A DNA stretch of 53,936 nucleotides from Thermoflexales bacterium. GTDB taxonomy: Bacteria > Chloroflexota > Anaerolineae > J036 > Brachytrichaceae. The translations under genes were made by a program, and so were the position numbers. Shown in pieces: positions 27,310-53,452 of the stretch. The number at the start of each line of letters is the position of its first letter. Position 1 is the stretch's first letter. Below the pieces are notes generated by a model that was given only the letters and a program-made list of their open reading frames with translations, did not search any database and was not told the DNA's origin. Location of the stretch: the NCBI GenBank assembly GCA_025056895.1, contig JANWVJ010000007.1, positions 1-53,936 of the forward strand, in the 5' to 3' direction.

Positions 27310-28107
27310 ATGAGACGGATCGCCGATCAGTATGAATTGCCCGACTACGATGAGCCGGATGAAGGTTACATCGGCGCTCTGTTGCGCCGACCTCGGCGAC
27401 CGTGGGGACGCATCTGGGCCGTCGTTGGCATTGTTCTGGCGCTGGCCGGCTTACTCACCAGCCTGATCTACGTAGATCGCGCCGAACGTGAGGATGCGTT
27501 TTGCATCGGCTGCCATACCGTGCCGGAACAGACCTACTTTGATCGCGCCGGCGCGGCCATGGCCGGCGCGCTGGCAGTTGATCTATCCAGCTATCACTAT
27601 CAACAGATTCGGGGGGCCGGCGGCGTCATCCATTGCATCAACTGCCACGAAGGCGACGGCAGCGCCGGTCACGTCCTGGACAAGCGGCTGTTGGGCCTGC
27701 GTAATCTGATCGAATGGTTTATCGGCCGCAATGACCCAAGCGTGGAAAAGCTGCGCGTCCGCGCGCCCCATTTATCGAACGACGGCTGCGTTGCCTGCCA
27801 TCAAGAGACAATCCTGGTGGCCGGCTTAGACAATCACTATCACAACATGCTGCCGATCAGCTATGTCTTGTGGAAGAACGGCGCGCGTCTCATCCCGCCC
27901 CGCAGTGCTGAAGATGTGCAAGCCATCATCGCTGCCGGCTTGGTCAGTTACAACACCGATGTTCAGTGCTCAGACTGCCACCAAACTCATCGCACCTTGG
28001 AAACGACGCTATACCTGGACGTGGGCGTGGTACAGCGCAGTTGTGTGCAGTGTCACCTTCAGGTCGGGCAAGGGCCGCTCGAAGTGACCGTAACACTGGA
28101 AGAATAG
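27310..28107 (+). CDS. membrane-anchored pentaheme cytochrome c (NapC/NirT-like)
   Basis: N-terminal TM WAVVGIVLALAGLLTSLIYV; five CXXCH motifs: CIGCH, CINCH, CVACH, CSDCH, CVQCH. Confidence 0.85.
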   Translation: MRRIADQYELPDYDEPDEGYIGALLRRPRRPWGRIWAVVGIVLALAGLLTSLIYVDRAEREDAFCIGCHTVPEQTYFDRAGAAMAGALAVDLSSYHYQQIRGAGGVIHCINCHEGDGSAGHVLDKRLLGLRNLIEWFIGRNDPSVEKLRVRAPHLSNDGCVACHQETILVAGLDNHYHNMLPISYVLWKNGARLIPPRSAEDVQAIIAAGLVSYNTDVQCSDCHQTHRTLETTLYLDVGVVQRSCVQCHLQVGQGPLEVTVTLEE

Positions 28108-28140: not shown

Positions 28141-28575
28141 CTACGCTTGCCCGTTTGATGAATGATTGACCTCCGGCGACCGGTGCAGTGTACTTGGTGA
28201 TGACGCCGCGCAGGCTGCTGAAGCACCTGGCAGGCGGTGGCGGTTGCGCGCTACCCAGCGATAGGCAGCGTCCTCTAGGTGTCGAATGCCGGGCATCCTG
28301 TAGAACAACGCGAGCAAGCGCCACATGCCGCCCAGTTCGTGCAGGGCGCGATTGATGGCGGCAGCAGCTCGATACTGCCGGCCATCCGGGTATACAAACC
28401 AGGCCGCTTCGGCGCACTGGGCAGCCGTCAGGCCGGTGCGTTCGAGCAGCCCCGGCGTCTGGTAGGGCAACACCTCTATGCGCGCATGCCGATCCCAGCG
28501 CAACACGGCGCCGGCTGCGCGCTGTCAAAATCCGCAATCGCCGTCGTATATCAGCACAGGTTTCAGATCGGTCAT
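28141..28575 (-). CDS. DCC-family (DUF393) thiol-disulfide oxidoreductase with in-frame TGA (candidate selenocysteine) at codon 17
   Basis: MTDLKPVLIYDGDCGF[TGA]QRAAGAVLRWDRHARIEVLPY...GGMWRLLALFYRMPGIRHLEDAAYRWVARNRHRL; TGA at 28525-28527 replaces the second Cys of DGDCxxC. Confidence 0.7.
28495..28514 (-). promoter_or_regulatory. candidate bacterial SECIS-like hairpin downstream of the TGA
   Basis: CCGGCGC-CGUGUU-GCGCUGG; 7-bp stem (one G-U), hexaloop at nt 21-26 counting U of UGA as 1, loop contains GU. Confidence 0.4.
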
Positions 28576-28585
28576 CGTTCGTTGT

Positions 28586-29536
28586 TTACCCGGCCAGAAT
28601 GCGCTCGATCTCCGCGAGGTGCTCCGCCGACAACACCAAGTCGCTGGCTTGCGCCGTCTCGTTCACCTGGGCTGCATTGCGAGCGCCAACGATGGCCGAA
28701 GTCACTTCAGGCCGGCGCAACACCCAAGCGATCGCCAGTTGTCCAACCGTGCAACCGTGCTTCTGCGCGATGGGGCGCAGCCTGTCCACAATCGCTAGGT
28801 TGGCCGACAACTGCGGCTCGATGAAGCGGAGGTCGTTGCGGCGATGATCGTTGGCCGGCAGCGCCTCGGTTCGCTCGCGGGTCCATTTGCCACTCAATAG
28901 ACCTTTGACCATCGGGCTATAGACCACCACGCCGATATTGTGCGCAGCACAGAACGGCAGAAGGTCACACTCTATGTCACGGTTTAACAAATTGTAGGGC
29001 GGCTGCACGGACGCCACTGGATGAATGGGCATGATGCGCTGAAGTTGTGCCACGTTGAAGTTGCACACACCGGCATAGCGCACTTTGCCGGCTTTCACTG
29101 CGTCGGCAATCGCGCCCCACCCTTCTTCGATATCCTCTTCCGGCTGTGGCCAGTGAATCTGATACAGATCAATCACATCCACGCCCAGCCGCTTTAGGCT
29201 GGCATCCAGCTCGGCCAGCACACTGGCGCGTTTCAAGTGCGCCATCGGCGCGCCATCCGGCCCTTTCACACGCCCGCATTTGGTAGCAATGAAGGGACGT
29301 TGACTGAGACCCTTGAGGGCGCGCCCAACTACTTCCTCGGAGTGGCCGAAGCCGTACACTGCTGCCGTATCAATCCAGTTGACACCCAAATCCACGGCGC
29401 GGTGAATCGCTGCGATTGAGTCGTTGTCATCCTGAGGTCCCCAGCCAAACTTCCAGTCACCGCCGCCGATCGCCCATGCGCCGAAACCGATTGCGCTGAA
29501 CTGGAGGTCGGTATGGCCAAGCGTCCGTGTGCGCAT
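28586..29536 (-). CDS. aldo/keto reductase
   Basis: MRTRTLGHTDLQFSAIGFGAWAIGGGDW...WIDTAAVYGFGHSEEVVGRAL...YQIHWPQPEEDIEEGW...VYSPMVKGLLSGK. Confidence 0.92.
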   Translation of the reverse strand: MRTRTLGHTDLQFSAIGFGAWAIGGGDWKFGWGPQDDNDSIAAIHRAVDLGVNWIDTAAVYGFGHSEEVVGRALKGLSQRPFIATKCGRVKGPDGAPMAHLKRASVLAELDASLKRLGVDVIDLYQIHWPQPEEDIEEGWGAIADAVKAGKVRYAGVCNFNVAQLQRIMPIHPVASVQPPYNLLNRDIECDLLPFCAAHNIGVVVYSPMVKGLLSGKWTRERTEALPANDHRRNDLRFIEPQLSANLAIVDRLRPIAQKHGCTVGQLAIAWVLRRPEVTSAIVGARNAAQVNETAQASDLVLSAEHLAEIERILAG

Positions 29537-29544
29537 GTCTCCCT

Positions 29545-30900
29545 CTAATACACAGGCAGATAGCGTTCCAACTCCCACTCGCTCACGTACAGGCGATATT
29601 CGTCCCATTCTTGGGTCTTGGCGTCCACATAGCGTTCGAAGAGGTGATCACCGAGCGTTTGGCGCATCAGCTCACTGCGTTTGAGTTCATCGATGGCTTC
29701 GCCAAGCGAGCCAGGCATGGCAACCATTTGCTGGCGCGCCTGATGATCGAGATGATACAAGTCTTCCTCGGCTGCCGGCGGCACAGGCAAATCGCGTTTG
29801 ATACCATCCAGACCGGCCATCAAAATCGCAGCAAACACCAAATACGGATTGGCCGACGGATCCGGGCAACGCAATTCGATGCGCGTAGCCGTTGCAACAC
29901 GGCCGGGACTGACTTTGGGAACGCGGATCAGCGCCGAGCGATTGGTGCGCGCCCAACTGAGGTACACCGGCGCTTCATAGCCGGGCACCAGCCGTTTGTA
30001 GCTGTTGACCAATGGGGCAATGATCGCCGACATAGCCCGCGCGTGATGCAACTGGCCGGCGATGAATTTCTTCGCCACCGCACTCAGGCCATACGCATCG
30101 CTGGGATCGGCGAAAGCGTTCTTGCCATCACTCCACAAGCTCTGATGGGTGTGCATGCCACTGCCATTGATGCCGGCGATCGGCTTGGGCATGAAGGTAG
30201 CATACAGGCCGTTGCGCTGCGCCACAGCCTTCAAAGTTTGCCGCAAGGTCACCGCATTGTCCGCCGTGCGCAAGGCGCGGTCATATTTGAAATCAATCTC
30301 ATGCTGGCCGGTGGCGACTTCGTGATGCAGGGCCTCTACACGAATGCCCAGCGCAGTAAGCGCCATCACCATCTGCCGGCGCACGGCATGTCCCAGATCG
30401 GTGCCATCGTCAAAATAGCCGGCCTGATCGTGCGGCTCCAGCGGCAACAATGTCGGCACGCTGCCGTTGCCAACTCCATGTGGTCGGAACAGAAAGAACT
30501 CTAGCTCCGGTCCGGTGAAATATTCGTAACCCATCTCAGCCGCTGCTTTCAGCGCCCGCTTCAACACATTGCGCGGGTCGCTGTCGAACGGTTCGCCGTT
30601 CGGTGTATACACATCGCAGATCACACGTGCCGTCGGTGCGTCGGTCACCCACGGCAGAACGGCAAATGTGTCAAGGTCGGGATACAGCAGCATATCGCTT
30701 TCGGCAATCCGCGCGAACCCCTGGATTGACGAACCGTCGAACCACTGGCCGTGCTCTAACACGTCCGGCCACATCTCAACAGGCACGCTGACCGTCTTGA
30801 CGATGCCCATGATGTCGGTGAACTGAAGGTTAATGAATTGAACGCCGGCGGACACAATACGCTCTTGGACGCGCTCGACGTTGACAGGGTTGTGATCCAT
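29545..30900 (-). CDS. glnA: glutamine synthetase, type I
   Basis: FTDIMGIVKTVSVPV, WFDGSSIQGFARIAESDMLLYPD, TGPELEFFLF, KPIAGINGSGMHTHQSLW, NRSALIRVP. Confidence 0.95.
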   Translation of the reverse strand: MDHNPVNVERVQERIVSAGVQFINLQFTDIMGIVKTVSVPVEMWPDVLEHGQWFDGSSIQGFARIAESDMLLYPDLDTFAVLPWVTDAPTARVICDVYTPNGEPFDSDPRNVLKRALKAAAEMGYEYFTGPELEFFLFRPHGVGNGSVPTLLPLEPHDQAGYFDDGTDLGHAVRRQMVMALTALGIRVEALHHEVATGQHEIDFKYDRALRTADNAVTLRQTLKAVAQRNGLYATFMPKPIAGINGSGMHTHQSLWSDGKNAFADPSDAYGLSAVAKKFIAGQLHHARAMSAIIAPLVNSYKRLVPGYEAPVYLSWARTNRSALIRVPKVSPGRVATATRIELRCPDPSANPYLVFAAILMAGLDGIKRDLPVPPAAEEDLYHLDHQARQQMVAMPGSLGEAIDELKRSELMRQTLGDHLFERYVDAKTQEWDEYRLYVSEWELERYLPVY

Positions 30901-45516: not shown

Positions 45517-46169
45517 GTTATTCGCTTCTCCGATGGAAGTGTGTTCTCAACAAGCCGGCGATGCACTATCAGAACCACGCCGGCGGCCATCCCCACGCAC
45601 AGGCCGTATAACAAGGCAAACGTCAGGCGAATGGCAGCGGAGGAAGACAAGCCGATGGGGTCGTGTGGGTGCATGACCAGCGGTGTGTTGGAGATAAGCG
45701 CGCCGTATAGCGCCGCCGGCGCAAGGTAGAGCGCGCCCTTCAGGCGGGCCGGCAGCGGCCAGGTGGCTAAGGTCAACACAATCACCGAGCCGGCCAACAT
45801 GATCACATTGGCGCGCATGCGCGGCTCGGCCCAATACACGCCACCCCAGTTAACCCACGCGGCCAGCGCGCTGAGCGTCGCGCCAGCGCCGAAGCACACC
45901 GCTGCCACACAGCCGATGGCAAACGCCCAGGTTTGCCACGACGGGCGCCCAGTGAGCAGAACGACCAGGCCAAGAACAGCCAGCAAGGCAAAACCGGTCA
46001 GGCCGGCCCAGGTGCAGGCCACATGCCAGTACACCACCCGAATGCCATCGCCCAGGGTGCGCTCGGCAGGAGCCAGCACAGTGGTCAGTGCGCCGGCCAG
46101 CAAACAGAGGGCGAGCCAGCCGGCCTGCGCGCAGCCGGACTGCATGACAGCGGCAAGGCGCGCCATCAC
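45513..46169 (-). CDS. divergent CcmC/CcsA-like multi-TM protein inside the bch operon
   Basis: GIRVVYWHVACTWAGL (cf. CcmC RIMYVHVPxAW), WGGVYWAEPRMRANVIML (WWD-like), MHPHDP; six or so hydrophobic segments. Confidence 0.6.
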   Translation of the reverse strand: MMARLAAVMQSGCAQAGWLALCLLAGALTTVLAPAERTLGDGIRVVYWHVACTWAGLTGFALLAVLGLVVLLTGRPSWQTWAFAIGCVAAVCFGAGATLSALAAWVNWGGVYWAEPRMRANVIMLAGSVIVLTLATWPLPARLKGALYLAPAALYGALISNTPLVMHPHDPIGLSSSAAIRLTFALLYGLCVGMAAGVVLIVHRRLVENTLPSEKRIT

Positions 46170-49100
46170 GCGCGCACTCCTTCCAGTCGATCTTCCAGGT
46201 CAGCGTACAGCGCTTTAAGCTGATCGATGATGGCGTTGTCGGCTTGCCACAAACCGCGCCCATTTGCTTCCAACAAACGCCCTACGATGTTGCGCATGGC
46301 TTGTGGGTTCGCTTGGCTCAGCCGTTCGCGCATGGTTGGGTCCAGGGCGAAGGTATGGGCGGCCTGGGTGTACACCCAGTCATCCACACTGTTGCTCACG
46401 GCATCCCACCCCAACATATACGTGAAACGGTTACCGATCTCGGCAGCGCCGCTGTGGCCGTGTTGCAACATGCCTTCGTACCAGCGCGGGTTCAGCAGCT
46501 TGGAGCGATATTCCATGCGCAACACTTTGTCCACATCGTCGATGCGCGTCTCGGCCGTAAAGGATTCGATGTAATTGAGCTTAACCGGCGCGCCGTTGTG
46601 GTGTCGCCGGCGGGCAGCCAGGTGCAACGCGCCCGACGACGCGAAGTAATGATCGATGTCGGAGACGCCAAACTCAACGGAATCGATCTCTTGCACTACG
46701 CGGCCAACTGTGCCCAGCAAGCGTTGAAGAATTTCTGGGGCGTGCTGGCCATGCCGGCTGCCGCCGTAAGCGTATGCATTGCGACGCACAAACAAGGCAT
46801 CGAGATCCTCTTCACTCTGCCAGGCTGAATCTTCGATCATGTCATCGACATAGGTGCCGTAGGCGCCGGGCGCCTGGGTAAACAATCGCGCAGTGGCGCA
46901 GCCAAACTCTACGCCGGCAGCCATGTGTTCTTGCACGTGCTTCTTGATGAAGTTCATCTCGATCGGCTCGTCCGCCTGAGCCGCCGCCTGCACCAGACGG
47001 TCCAAATGATCCATCACCATGCCGAAGGTGTCGCGGAAGACCGGGCTGAGGTTCATCAGCACGTCGATGCGCGGGCGCCCCAGTTCGCTCAGCGGGATCA
47101 ACTCGTAATGGCTGATCTTGCCTTGGCCGTCGTAGGCGGGCCGCGCGCCGATCAAGCGCAGCACGGTGGCGACGGCTTCGCCTTTGGTCTTGATCGTGTC
47201 CAATCCCCACAACACCTGGGCGATGGTTTCAGGATAGGCGCCGTTGTTCTCTTGCAGGTGGCGGGCCAGCACAGCATCGGCGATCTGCGCGCCGCGCGCA
47301 TAGGCCAGTTCGGAAGGAATGCGCCAGGGATCGATGGCGTGGATATTGCGGCCGGTGGGCAACACGGTCATGCCGTCGCGGATCAGATCACCGCCGGGGC
47401 CGGAGGGCAAAAAGCCGCCGGCAAGCGCATGGGCGATCGCATCCAGCTCGGCGCGCTGGTCGGAGAGCCGACGGGCCAGCTCGCGTCCGGCGCGCGTCAT
47501 GGCATCTAGCGCGTGTGCGTCCTCTGCGTCGAGCTGCTGGGCGCCGGTCACGCGGCTGAAGGCAGGAGCAGGCTGTTCGCCGTTCAAGATGCTGCGGGCG
47601 ACGAATTCACGGCAGGCCAGATCGACCTGCTCGCGCTGTTGCAAAGCGAGCGGATCGCCCCGTCGGGCGCGAGCAGCCAGCTCGGCGTAAGCCGGCGCAG
47701 CAGGCCCGTGCAAGGCGCGGGTCACCAACGCGGCCAACGAGTGGCCGTTGCCGGCCGCTTTTAACCACTCGGTGATGGCCACTTCCTGCGTTTCGAGGGG
47801 CGCGGCCTCACCCAGCACGTGCAGCGCGCCGCTGATAAGCCGATTCTCCAACTCGCGCAGATAGGCGTGCAGGCGGGCGGCATACTCTTCGAAAGATTCG
47901 CCGGCCAGGCGCGGGCAATCGGCGTCTAGATTGGCCAGGGCCACTTTGTTGAGCACGGCCTCTTCAAAAGTGGGATCAAGCTCTGTGGCAGCAGCGCGGG
48001 CGTCGGCGGCGCGTTGGCGATAGTCGTCCAACATTTCCCGCAGCGCGCCGAGTTCCTTGTACAGGCCGGCGCGCGTCATCGGCGGCACAGCATGTGAGAT
48101 CATCGCAGCATAGCCGCGCCGTTTGGCAATATTGGCTTCGCTGGGGTTATTGACCGGGTACAGGTAGAGATGGGGTAGCTCGCCCAACAGTGCGTCGGGC
48201 CAGCACGTCTGCGTCATGCCGAGTTGCAGGCCGGGCATCCACTCCGCCGAGCCATGCATCCCGACATGAATCAGAGCATCGGCCTCAAAACCGCGTGCAA
48301 TCCAACGATAGAAGCTGATGTACTGATGATGAGGCGTATTGGCTTTGTCGAACAACAAGCGCATTGGGTCGCCCTGGACGCCAAAGCGCGGTTGCACGCC
48401 GATGTAGATATTGCCCAGGCGCAGGCCGCCGATGAACACGGCGTCTTTGCTGAGCGGAGCAATTTCGCCGGGGAACGACCCCCACCGCTCTTCGATGCGC
48501 GCACGCTCGTCGGTCGATACCCAGCGACGATAGTCGTCGGCGGTGACGGCGAAGCCGGCCTGCGCCGAGCCAAGCGGCATCTCGGTGGCTTGGTCGAGCC
48601 AGGCCAAAAGCTGTTCGGGTGTGGCAGGCAACGGGCCGGTTGTGTAGCCTTCAGCTTGCAAACGTCGCAGCACATTCAACAGACTGCGCGGCACATCGAG
48701 CAGAGCAGCCGTAGCTTTTTTGCCCAAGCCGGGCGGATAGTCGTACACCACAATGGCGATTTTCTTCTCGCGGTTGGGCTTGTGGCGCAGGGCGACCCAC
48801 TTTTTGACCAACGTGACCAGGCGCTCCAGCCGGTCGGGCGCGGTTTGGAAAGCACCGTTGTTGAGCGCGCCGATCACAACCGGATCAATCGCGCCGTCCA
48901 TCTCCGGCAACGCATACAGCACGGTAGATTGCATCGGCCCAACGCCAACGGTATGCCATGAAAGGAAGTCTTGCACGTAAAGCGGCTGAGCGACGATATA
49001 GGGCGCATCGATGCTGCCGAGAATGTCGTGGGCAATTTTGACGGACAGGCCTGGGGCGGTGGAGCCGGCCGGCCCGCCCACCAATGCAAAGCCGATCGTG

Positions 49101-50050
49101 CTGACCAAAGCATCGACTTTCTCTCTGGCCAGCCAGTCGCGCACGGCGACATGGCCTTCAATGCCGGCGACGAAGACGGGCAACACGTCCAGATCGGCCT
49201 TCTCGAAGGCGCGAATCACATCGTCAATGTAACCGCGCTCTTGAACCAGATGCTTGCGGAAGAACAGCAGGCCGACAGTTGATTTCGAGGCTTGATTTCT
49301 GGATTTGGCGCTGCGCCGTCGCCAATCGCGAAAAGATTTAACATCTTTAAAGAAGGCCGGCGCATCGGGGTGATACAGCCCCATCATCGGCACTTCGACC
49401 ACCGGCTCGACGACAAGAGCGCGGCCAAAGTATTCGCGCGCAATCAAACGGAACATATTGACGATGTTGTGCGGCAAGGGCTGGTTCCAGTAAATGTTGA
49501 CCGTCATCCAGTTCTTAAAGTCGCGCGCCTTGTCCGGCATGAAGCGCATCATGGTTTGCATCAGCTTCATCAGCTTGGTGTAGCCGTATAAGGTGTCTTC
49601 CTCGCGGCCTTTGACCAGCAAACGCGCGACACGCTTGATCGGCTCCGGCATACCTCCTTTGCCGCTTACGACGTAGTCGCCCACTTTGTTCAGCGCCATC
49701 ACCTCGGGCATCGACTCGTAAGCGAAGATCACCTGCGCGCGCGACCGAGCAACTTGTTCACACAACCAGTCCGCCTGTTCTTTAAAATTCACCATCGTGA
49801 TAAACAAGCAGTCGGCGTTGTGAATAGACTCGGCCACTTCGGGCGCTTTGCGCTCCAGGTCCAGGTCGGTCCACTGGCGGATAACGATCTCCGGCGCCAG
49901 TTCGGACTTGACCTGTTCCCAAACGCGGCGGTTGAAATGTTCCATGCCGACCACCGCCGTGATCGACAAAGGTGTGGATGGGGACGGGCTAACGGCAACC
50001 GTCTCAACGGGATGGGCAAGCGATTTGCCGTTTGTTCGAGCGCTTTTCAT
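46166..50050 (-). CDS. bchH: magnesium chelatase subunit H
   Basis: 1294 aa; ITAVVGMEHFNRRVWEQVK..., VGMHGSAEWMPGLQLGMTQTCWPDALLGELPHLYLYPVNNPSEANIAKRRGYA; QVLWGLDTIKTKGEAVATVLRLIGARP. Confidence 0.97.
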   Translation of the reverse strand: MKSARTNGKSLAHPVETVAVSPSPSTPLSITAVVGMEHFNRRVWEQVKSELAPEIVIRQWTDLDLERKAPEVAESIHNADCLFITMVNFKEQADWLCEQVARSRAQVIFAYESMPEVMALNKVGDYVVSGKGGMPEPIKRVARLLVKGREEDTLYGYTKLMKLMQTMMRFMPDKARDFKNWMTVNIYWNQPLPHNIVNMFRLIAREYFGRALVVEPVVEVPMMGLYHPDAPAFFKDVKSFRDWRRRSAKSRNQASKSTVGLLFFRKHLVQERGYIDDVIRAFEKADLDVLPVFVAGIEGHVAVRDWLAREKVDALVSTIGFALVGGPAGSTAPGLSVKIAHDILGSIDAPYIVAQPLYVQDFLSWHTVGVGPMQSTVLYALPEMDGAIDPVVIGALNNGAFQTAPDRLERLVTLVKKWVALRHKPNREKKIAIVVYDYPPGLGKKATAALLDVPRSLLNVLRRLQAEGYTTGPLPATPEQLLAWLDQATEMPLGSAQAGFAVTADDYRRWVSTDERARIEERWGSFPGEIAPLSKDAVFIGGLRLGNIYIGVQPRFGVQGDPMRLLFDKANTPHHQYISFYRWIARGFEADALIHVGMHGSAEWMPGLQLGMTQTCWPDALLGELPHLYLYPVNNPSEANIAKRRGYAAMISHAVPPMTRAGLYKELGALREMLDDYRQRAADARAAATELDPTFEEAVLNKVALANLDADCPRLAGESFEEYAARLHAYLRELENRLISGALHVLGEAAPLETQEVAITEWLKAAGNGHSLAALVTRALHGPAAPAYAELAARARRGDPLALQQREQVDLACREFVARSILNGEQPAPAFSRVTGAQQLDAEDAHALDAMTRAGRELARRLSDQRAELDAIAHALAGGFLPSGPGGDLIRDGMTVLPTGRNIHAIDPWRIPSELAYARGAQIADAVLARHLQENNGAYPETIAQVLWGLDTIKTKGEAVATVLRLIGARPAYDGQGKISHYELIPLSELGRPRIDVLMNLSPVFRDTFGMVMDHLDRLVQAAAQADEPIEMNFIKKHVQEHMAAGVEFGCATARLFTQAPGAYGTYVDDMIEDSAWQSEEDLDALFVRRNAYAYGGSRHGQHAPEILQRLLGTVGRVVQEIDSVEFGVSDIDHYFASSGALHLAARRRHHNGAPVKLNYIESFTAETRIDDVDKVLRMEYRSKLLNPRWYEGMLQHGHSGAAEIGNRFTYMLGWDAVSNSVDDWVYTQAAHTFALDPTMRERLSQANPQAMRNIVGRLLEANGRGLWQADNAIIDQLKALYADLEDRLEGVRA

Positions 50051-51882
50051 GGCGCGATCACCTCCGTAATTTGATGGGCCCGCGCATTCGGCAGATACAC
50101 GTAACGGGCGTTTAAATCGCCGGCCAGGGCGCGCGCTTCGCCGCGCGACAGATAACCGGCTTGTGTGTCGATCACTACGGCGTTTAGCCGATCGGCGGCG
50201 ATGCAGCGGGCAAGTTGATGAATCTCGTTTTGAATCTGTTCTTTGTCAGCAGAGCGTTCATCTGGGTGAGGATGCAGCGACACATTGGCGCGCCCGTCGG
50301 TCAACAAGACTAATGTGATGTTGTGGATGCCGCGCGTGCGGGCCTGACGGGCAGTTTGCCAAGCCAACCACAACGCCGAAGCCAGCGGCGTGCCGCCACC
50401 GGTCGGGAGCACGTCCAGTTCGCGGCGGGCGCGGTCGGGGCTGGAAGAGGGCGGCAAAAGGAGCTGCGCCGCCGGCCCGCGAAACGCGATCAGCGCCACT
50501 TGGTCGCGGTGCACATACGCGCTGCGCAACAAGCGGGCCACAGTCCCTTTGGCCTCACGCATCCGGTTCAGCGCCATCGAGCCGGAGGCGTCAACGACGA
50601 AGATGAACAACGTGCCGGCCTTGTCACGAAAGCGTTTAACACGCACGTCTTCTTTGCGTAACACGACGCGCGAAGCCGAGTGACCGTTGGCAGGCTGCTG
50701 GGCACGACGTAGGGTTTGCCAAGGGGCGGCGGCCAACAAAGTGGGTAGCAAGGCGATCTTGCGCCCGCGCGGTGCTCCGGGCACGGCGCGCACGTAACGC
50801 CCGCGCCGGTCGTTCAGAGCGATGCCTCGGCTGCCGGTTTTGCCGCGCCGCTGCACGGCAAACGGCAACTGGGTTAGCTCAGCCGGCAGCTCGGTCTCGA
50901 TGGCGCTCAGCAACAGTTCCTCGATGTGTTCCGGGGTCGGCGTCTGATCGGGTGACTTTTCCTCAGGTGTCTCTGCGGGATCGCGCGCCCCATCAGGGGG
51001 CGGCGCCGCTTGGGAGGGTTGGGAGGGCTGCTCCGCTGCGGTCGGTTGCGGAGGGCGGGTGGCGCGCGGCAACAAGACCAGCTTGGCAGCGATTTCCAGA
51101 TCGGCCTCGGTCACGTCGGCACGGCCGGCCAGAGCAGCACTGGCCAACGCGGCCTTGACGGCAAACACATCGACGCGATTTCCTTCTACACCTAAGCTGA
51201 GGGCTGCGCGGGCCAACGCTTCGATCTGCTCATCCAAGATGGCGACGTGAGGGAGCTGCTTGCGCGCCAGTTCAATGAGGGCGCGCAGCATGTCATCACC
51301 GTTTTCGTCAGGGCGATCACTGGCAGGGCGCACATTGCGGCGCACCACTTCTTGGCGCCGGTGCACATCACTCTGAGCAGACAGAGCAACGATCAGGCCG
51401 AGCCGGTCGAGCAGGCTGCCGGCCACCGGGCCGTCGCTAGGGTCAAAGGTGCCGATCAGCATGAAGTGGGTTGGGTACACGGCGCTCACGCCGTCGCGTT
51501 CCACGCGCACCACGCCGCGCGCCAGCGCATCCATGACGTGCGCTGCGGCGCCGGCATCGAGCAGGTTGAGGCTATCGACATACACTACGCCGCTGTGCGC
51601 GCGGGCCAACAGACCGGGTTCGATCACGCGCTCGCCGCGCGCCAGCGTGGCCTCTAAATCGAGTCCGCCGATCAAGCGATCTTCGGTCACGTTGATGGGC
51701 AGCTCGACGAAGGGTGCGCCGGCCGGCAACAAGGATGCAAAGGCGCGCGCCAGCGTGGACTTGCCGCTGCCGACCGGGGCGGCCAATGCCAGGCCGGCCA
51801 GCGACGGATCGACGGCCAGCAGGAGGAGGGCCTGCTTGGCGCGCTCCATGCCAACCACATCGTCAAAACTCAGCCGGTTCAT
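50047..51882 (-). CDS. bchD: magnesium chelatase subunit D
   Basis: AAPVGSGKSTLARAFASLLP; VWA domain FVVDASGSMALNRMREAKGTVARLLRSAYVHRDQVALIAFRG; LLPPSSSPDRARRELDVLPTGGGTPLASAL. Confidence 0.95.
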   Translation of the reverse strand: MNRLSFDDVVGMERAKQALLLLAVDPSLAGLALAAPVGSGKSTLARAFASLLPAGAPFVELPINVTEDRLIGGLDLEATLARGERVIEPGLLARAHSGVVYVDSLNLLDAGAAAHVMDALARGVVRVERDGVSAVYPTHFMLIGTFDPSDGPVAGSLLDRLGLIVALSAQSDVHRRQEVVRRNVRPASDRPDENGDDMLRALIELARKQLPHVAILDEQIEALARAALSLGVEGNRVDVFAVKAALASAALAGRADVTEADLEIAAKLVLLPRATRPPQPTAAEQPSQPSQAAPPPDGARDPAETPEEKSPDQTPTPEHIEELLLSAIETELPAELTQLPFAVQRRGKTGSRGIALNDRRGRYVRAVPGAPRGRKIALLPTLLAAAPWQTLRRAQQPANGHSASRVVLRKEDVRVKRFRDKAGTLFIFVVDASGSMALNRMREAKGTVARLLRSAYVHRDQVALIAFRGPAAQLLLPPSSSPDRARRELDVLPTGGGTPLASALWLAWQTARQARTRGIHNITLVLLTDGRANVSLHPHPDERSADKEQIQNEIHQLARCIAADRLNAVVIDTQAGYLSRGEARALAGDLNARYVYLPNARAHQITEVIAP

Positions 51883-52964
51883 GCGGACGGCGCAGGTGCA
51901 TCGAGCGTCAGCTTACTCAGTGCGCGCTCGATCTTTTCATCTGAATCAACGGTTTCCAGGGGGTCGCGACGCAAGCGATGACGCAAACAGGCCGGCGCGA
52001 CGGCAATCACATCGGGCCACACCACGCGGGCGCGGCCATGCAGGGCGGCGTGCGCGGCAGCGGCGCGGGCCAGGGTTAACTCGCCGCGATGGCCGTCAAT
52101 GCCCAAGTTCATGCACAATTCAGCGATGCGATTGAGGATCGGATCGGGCAGATCAACCGCAGAAACGGCTTTCTGCGCGCGGGTGATGCGAGTGCGCAAC
52201 GCGCGCTGTTCCTTTTCCCAAGCAGCGGAGAAAGCGAAGGGGTCGGCGTCGAAGGCGCGCCGGCGCTTCACGATCTCGACGCGCAGGGCCACGTCGGTGA
52301 TGGTTGTGATGCGGGCGTGCAGGCCAAAGCGATCGAGCAATTGGGGGCGCAAATCGCCTTCCTCTGGATTTCCGGAGCCGACCAGGACGAAACGGGCCGG
52401 ATGGCGCACGCTGATCCCTTCGCGCTCAACCACGTTCCATCCGCTGGCGGCCACGTCGAGCAGCACATCGACCAGATGATCGTCAAGCAGATTGACCTCG
52501 TCGATGTATAGAAAGCCGCGATTGGCCTGGGCCAACAAACCCGGCTCAAACGCTTTGACGCCGCGCGTGAGAGCCTGCTCGATATCGATCGTGCCGCACA
52601 CGCGGTCTTCAGTAGCGCCAAGCGGCAAATCGACCACCGGCACGGGGATGCGCTCGGTTTTGAGTTTAGGGGTGTGGGATCGCTCCGTATGGCCGTTCGC
52701 GCCGGCAGTAGGCGGAGCATCGTGCATCTCTTCCGGGGGGCGGTTGTACGGGTCGCCGGCGACGCGCGTAATGCGCGGCAACACGGCGGCCAGCGCGCGC
52801 ACGGTGGTGCTCTTGCCTGTGCCGCGATGTCCCATCACCAGCACGCCGCCAATGCGCGGATCGATGACGTTGAGCAACAGACACAGCTTCATCTCATCTT
52901 GGCCGACGATGGCGGTGAAGGGAAACGGCGGGGCAAGGGGTGAAGCGGCCGAGTTGGGACTCAT
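51879..52964 (-). CDS. bchI: magnesium chelatase ATPase subunit I
   Basis: PFTAIVGQDEMKLCLLLNVIDPRIGGVLVMGHRGTGKSTTVRALAAVLP; LLAQANRGFLYIDEVNLLDDHLVDVLLDVAASG. Confidence 0.96.
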   Translation of the reverse strand: MSPNSAASPLAPPFPFTAIVGQDEMKLCLLLNVIDPRIGGVLVMGHRGTGKSTTVRALAAVLPRITRVAGDPYNRPPEEMHDAPPTAGANGHTERSHTPKLKTERIPVPVVDLPLGATEDRVCGTIDIEQALTRGVKAFEPGLLAQANRGFLYIDEVNLLDDHLVDVLLDVAASGWNVVEREGISVRHPARFVLVGSGNPEEGDLRPQLLDRFGLHARITTITDVALRVEIVKRRRAFDADPFAFSAAWEKEQRALRTRITRAQKAVSAVDLPDPILNRIAELCMNLGIDGHRGELTLARAAAAHAALHGRARVVWPDVIAVAPACLRHRLRRDPLETVDSDEKIERALSKLTLDAPAPSA

Positions 52965-53452
52965 GACACAGTTGGGTCTGTTTGCGCAGCACGACGGGCG
53001 CTGCGCTTCTGCAAAGCCGTCTGAATGCCTCTGACCAAAAACTGGGTGAAGTTGGCCAGGTAGGTCAGGAACGCAACGCACATGATCCACATTTGCGTCA
53101 CCGGGTCTGCTCCTAGCCAGCCCGACACCAGAAAGGCGGTGTGGGCGATGAGGGCAATCAGGTTGACAAAATCTTCCCAGAAGAATTCTTTGGCCAGGAA
53201 CCAGGGGCCGAACACTTCATGCTCCCAGAACGCGCCGGTGACGGTCATGAAGTAGAGCATGAGCACTTTAACAACCGACACGGCGTGGGCCAGTTCGTAG
53301 TCGGCGCCGGTGGCAAGAAAACGGACAACCAACACAACGTTGACCAGAAAGACCAGTAATTGAATCGGCGCACCGATGGCTTGGACGGGCGTCCAGATCG
53401 AACGGTTGCGACGCTCAAGTTGTTCGGGGGTATATCGCATAGCACTTTTCAA
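52961..53452 (-). CDS. bchF: 3-vinyl bacteriochlorophyllide hydratase
   Basis: MRYTPEQLERRNRSIWTPVQAIGAPIQLLVFLVN...VTGAFWEHEVFGPWFLAKEFFWEDFVNLIALIAHTAFL. Confidence 0.88.
   Translation of the reverse strand: MKSAMRYTPEQLERRNRSIWTPVQAIGAPIQLLVFLVNVVLVVRFLATGADYELAHAVSVVKVLMLYFMTVTGAFWEHEVFGPWFLAKEFFWEDFVNLIALIAHTAFLVSGWLGADPVTQMWIMCVAFLTYLANFTQFLVRGIQTALQKRSARRAAQTDPTVS

Follow-up and report, generated by a model that had tools for sequence, protein, structure and literature searches.

The stretch analysed here (the window, 53,936 nt from a Thermoflexales bacterium) carries on its minus strand a frame that a single TGA interrupts at the second Cys of its YDGDCGFC (YDGDCxxC) redox motif, which raises the question of whether this codon is a lesion or is read as selenocysteine (Sec). 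Inspection of the reading frame bore out the original prediction: the frame runs from an ATG at 28575 and, apart from this TGA, stays open to a TAG at 28141, and the supplied ORF call, starting from a GTG at 28506, does lose the redox motif. The length given earlier, a 144-codon product, is right for the residues (144), but the codons number 145 with the stop. The features concerned are the following.

28141..28575, minus strand: predicted DCC1-like (PF04134/DUF393) selenoprotein gene, ATG at 28575, TAG at 28141, 144 residues, Sec17
28525..28527, minus strand: proposed selenocysteine codon, an in-frame TGA at codon 17, second position of CxxC (CGFU); homologous TGA in 15 CxxU and 24 UxxU genes, the window gene included
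28534..28536, minus strand: Cys14 codon (TGC), the first Cys of the motif and likely partner of Sec17

With TGA read as U, the product (MTDLKPVLIYDGDCGF-U-QRAAG...) matches PF04134 at 75.5 bits (cut-off 27.8, E = 9.8e-21, residues 8–117); a PF04134 search tolerant of in-frame stops gave the gene 65.6 bits. Like the DCC1-like thiol-disulfide oxidoreductases, it has the whole domain above the Pfam cut-off, the DxDGxCxxC motif and the invariant residues D11, Y105 and R112. This family (PF04134, DUF393) also goes by the names COG3011 and YuxK-type. In place of the two Cys of the PF04134 CxxC motif, the window gene has CxxU, i.e., an in-frame UGA where its homologues have a redox Cys, as is expected of a bacterial selenoprotein gene. 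It is thus a predicted Sec variant of PF04134, with one Cys swapped for its selenium analogue. In the AlphaFold2 model of the product (mean pLDDT 88), a strand (residues 7–10) is followed by a helix (residues 15–27) that starts right after Cys14. Fold matches in the PDB were weak (best E values of 0.02–0.2), with thioredoxin-like proteins among them, and a sequence search of the PDB found no solved structure related to the product.

The stop-tolerant PF04134 search covered 396 genomes from the class plus 400 from the phylum Chloroflexota. Many of its matches contained one or two TGA codons; TAA occurred in a single one, a weak fragment. Among the 111 distinct DCC genes with a readable motif, 63 were CxxC, 15 CxxU, 9 UxxC and 24 UxxU. 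The 48 TGA-bearing genes come from 48 Chloroflexota genomes in 17 family-level groups, and 47 of them, i.e., all besides that of the window, have UGA at the homologous Cys, at its partner or at both. Every TGA in these genes (72 of 72) falls on one of the two motif Cys codons, as opposed to none on the 5,213 other codons of the domain, so their position in the motif is more than chance. At codon 17 itself, where the original prediction had left it to the homologues to show either Cys or TGA, both congeners have Cys, and a neighbouring clade has TGA (10 genes from 10 genomes of one family-level group). Scattered extra stops in relatives, which had been set against a selenocysteine reading, were not seen. 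Additional TGA codons in L184, L193 and L194 were considered as further Sec and rejected, each being the natural stop after WW. Within one and the same gene, L187, L193 and L194 use TGA twice, for Sec in the motif and, after WW, for the final stop. A UxxU and a CxxC DCC gene coexist in genome G738 (L197 and L208). In viral contigs, the FDGxUxFU pattern had 98 matches at the DNA level; profile searches placed none of these in a DCC frame.

Bacterial SECIS elements have been modeled as hairpins with a loop of 3–9 nt, a stem of 4–16 bp, a G in the first two loop bases, a distance of 16–37 nt from UGA to loop, and an energy of −7.5 kcal/mol or lower (PMC13188914). The window gene has a hairpin within these limits, with CG as its first two loop bases:

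28495..28514, minus strand: predicted bacterial SECIS hairpin CCGGCGC-CGUGUU-GCGCUGG, 7 bp, 6-nt loop, GU at loop positions 2–3, 17 nt after UGA, −11.4 kcal/mol

At the UGA, the ribosome would cover the 10 nt that come next. When they are left out, the hairpin makes up 96% of the ensemble; when all 61 nt are free, a longer alternative stem beats it. Taken alone, the hairpin is unexceptional for the GC content (synonymous-permutation p = 0.20, shuffle z of −0.9); the assignment of a SECIS in the window therefore rests on position, form, and kinship, not on energy. Indeed, the hairpin coincides with the hairpin peak of the other Sec-DCC genes. In the TGA genes, mean hairpin energy peaks at a loop start of 16–18 nt after the UGA, a peak that the Cys genes lack. 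For hairpins with a loop start 15–20 nt after the UGA, the median is −9.3 kcal/mol in U genes versus 0 in Cys genes (p = 7e-10, uncorrected for kinship). By synonymous-codon permutation, p ≤ 0.05 was reached by 87% of the CxxU, 58% of the UxxU, 22% of the UxxC and 5% of the CxxC genes. Compensatory changes were also found: in one clade of 13 genes, both sides had changed at 5 of 8 stem pairs, and pairing was 92% versus 21–59% when the stem was slid. It was the fixed-position, ungapped hairpin test that separated TGA from Cys genes; a best-energy bSECIS search over the whole 66 nt discriminates poorly, as 47 of the 63 Cys genes also match in this GC-rich DNA. A kin-corrected pair test of hairpin against TGA had too few independent pairs and hence low power.

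The source genome is a draft metagenome-assembled genome (MAG) of 3.29 Mb. The original prediction depended on the Sec machinery of this genome, and all four genes are present: selA (517.5 bits), selB (313.7 bits across a whole single frame), selC, the tRNA-Sec (71.1 bits, anticodon TCA, i.e., UCA), and selD (373.6 bits), the last with one in-frame TGA at SCAG-U-ASK. Since its SelD carries an in-frame UGA, this genome uses Sec elsewhere as well. The SelD gene (L111, C311:6168-7100) is thus itself a UGA selenoprotein gene, and its apical hairpin, GGCGCA-CGUGU-UGCGUC, resembles that of the DCC gene, whereas the enzyme is unrelated and the loop lies 32 nt after the UGA, as compared with 17 in the DCC gene. 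The apical motif common to the two (GCGC.{1,2}GTGTTGC) occurs 43 times in the genome and 10 times in a reversed control, and its sharing is suggestive only. Presence of the machinery is a weak test, given how widespread selA is among genomes of the class (318 of 396), and within DCC genomes the association of the machinery with the TGA form reached only p = 0.08. Of the 48 genomes having TGA-DCC genes, 42, among them that of the window, yielded a tRNA-Sec. Among the other six, G313, G186 and G164, all of the class, carry selA; in the draft genome of G189 neither selA nor tRNA-Sec was found; and G685 and G673 lay outside the selA search. G189, G685 and G673 are drafts of 84–87% completeness.

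With the sel genes, the TGA homologues and the SECIS-type hairpin behind it, the selenocysteine reading put forward in the original prediction is supported: the gene in all likelihood encodes a DCC-family (PF04134, DUF393) oxidoreductase, probably thioredoxin-like, in its Sec form, with hairpin-directed Sec17. A recent nonsense mutation, or an early-stage pseudogene, in which the second motif Cys was struck by chance is improbable. One base change turns TGC or TGT into TGA, and Cys is what both congeners have at this codon; yet TGA stands at the identical codon in the 10 neighboring-clade genes, the 48 genes carry TGA at one or both motif Cys and never elsewhere in the domain, and the window gene has no further lesion, with its hairpin correctly placed. 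Its dN/dS values are 0.17 and 0.13 versus the two congeners, similar to the 0.11 between the congeners themselves, which argues that the product is under purifying selection, although such low values are also compatible with a very recent loss.

The draft state of the MAG (315 contigs, 87% complete) also brings to mind a one-base sequencing or assembly error, but such an error is hard to credit where dozens of independently assembled relatives have TGA at the codon in question, and we consider it even less probable than a nonsense mutation. Almost no weight can be given to the third possibility, namely that TGA is read as an amino acid throughout the organism, by a change of code or by general suppression. 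An in-frame TGA breaking an otherwise conserved frame is what this would produce, but TGA is the ordinary stop of 10 of the 20 large ORFs in the window and is therefore not generally reassigned; moreover, the double use of TGA in L187, L193 and L194, as described above, contradicts it.

Under the preferred reading, Sec insertion by way of the hairpin, the element whose loop lies 17 nt downstream of the UGA would recruit SelB with Sec-tRNA(Sec), which would then insert Sec at the UGA as residue 17. The product would be a small thiol-disulfide oxidoreductase with a Cys14–Sec17 selenenyl-sulfide, presumably cycling, where the first helix begins, between the reduced pair Cys14-SH/Sec17-SeH and the bonded form Cys14-S-Se-Sec17. 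Its gene has a close neighbor on the same strand:

28586..29608, minus strand: aldo/keto reductase gene, separated by 10 nt from the DCC start that follows it; gene order identical in both congeners

The aldo/keto reductases just upstream of DCC in the congener loci (L018 and L019) are 85–87% identical to that of the window. The two genes form a probable operon and may be expressed together.

Phylogenetically, the window gene falls together with its two Cys congeners (SH-aLRT 94), and the adjoining clade comprises ten CxxU genes plus a single UxxC gene. Over the whole tree, in which many deeper forks are weak, Sec and Cys states must have interchanged at least 11 times. In both congeners, a strong hairpin occupies the corresponding position (−12.0 and −10.0 kcal/mol; p of 0.08 and 0.04 by permutation); one of the two, G001, has neither selA nor tRNA-Sec, and the other, G002, has both. 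That the Cys congeners keep the hairpin, one of them in a genome lacking selA and tRNA-Sec, suggests that Sec was ancestral and reverted to Cys in the congeners, whereas parsimony alone would also allow a gain of Sec in the window lineage. The genus, in which one species carries Sec, a second carries Cys and has lost the machinery, and a third carries Cys and keeps it, offers a compact setting in which to ask which way Cys/Sec exchange has run. Elsewhere in the phylum, a CxxC gene (L206, from G578) is nested among UxxU genes and has a hairpin of −13.3 kcal/mol at the SECIS place; it is likely another Sec-to-Cys reversal.

The related UGA genes across the phylum are very probably a family of selenium-containing proteins. 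On a wider view, we think it likely that this is an unreported, phylum-wide selenoprotein family in which CxxC, CxxU, UxxC and UxxU forms have repeatedly shifted into one another under a SECIS loop 16–18 nt after the UGA, in which the double-Sec form implies a diselenide centre, as the UxxU members would form, and in which the congeners of the window have recently reverted from Sec to Cys, leaving fossil SECIS hairpins.

As known, the DCC1-like family is described with Cys, whereas here Sec replaces the second, the first or both motif Cys. To date, a CxxU redox motif with UGA decoding and a SECIS just downstream has been listed for other selenoproteins, including SELENOW-like (PF10262), AhpD-like, and GrdA proteins (PMC13188914, Table 1); these are distinct protein families, and DCC is absent from the table. 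Both redox Cys are likewise Sec in a Prx-like thiol:disulfide oxidoreductase (UxxC/UxxU) and in the metal-binding UxxU protein NF041115 (PMC13188914), although these too belong to other families. Among the Sec forms of DCC in Chloroflexota, double-Sec UxxU leads with 24 of 48 genes.

In the freely readable journal papers that the search covered, nothing was found linking selenoprotein or selenocysteine to DUF393, PF04134, COG3011 or oxidoreductase DCC. Neither PF04134 nor DCC appears in the 2026 table of prokaryotic selenoprotein families (PMC13188914), DCC-family names are absent from the texts of older selenoprotein surveys and of a prediction paper, and NCBIfam has no model naming a DCC selenoprotein. 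Within the searchable literature, DCC thus appears to be new as a selenoprotein family, and its Sec form a new variant of an already known protein family, as judged from sequence comparison over the Chloroflexota genomes that the search for TGA forms covered. A whole protein family would be added to the selenoproteome. Since gene callers stop at the UGA or start after it, DCC Sec genes are truncated or missed. The natural series Cys-Cys, Cys-Sec, Sec-Cys and Sec-Sec of one small protein would be useful for asking why evolution picks Sec.

Two further observations concern the rest of the window. Convergent with the DCC gene, positions 27310–28107 on the plus strand encode a NapC/NirT-like protein with multihaem CXXCH motifs. 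On the minus strand, positions 46166–53090 hold a CobN/BchH-like Mg-chelatase large subunit (PF02514 with DUF3479) and two ChlI/ChlD-like AAA/VWA genes; this chelatase cluster is of the bacteriochlorophyll type, so the source Anaerolineae may be phototrophic.
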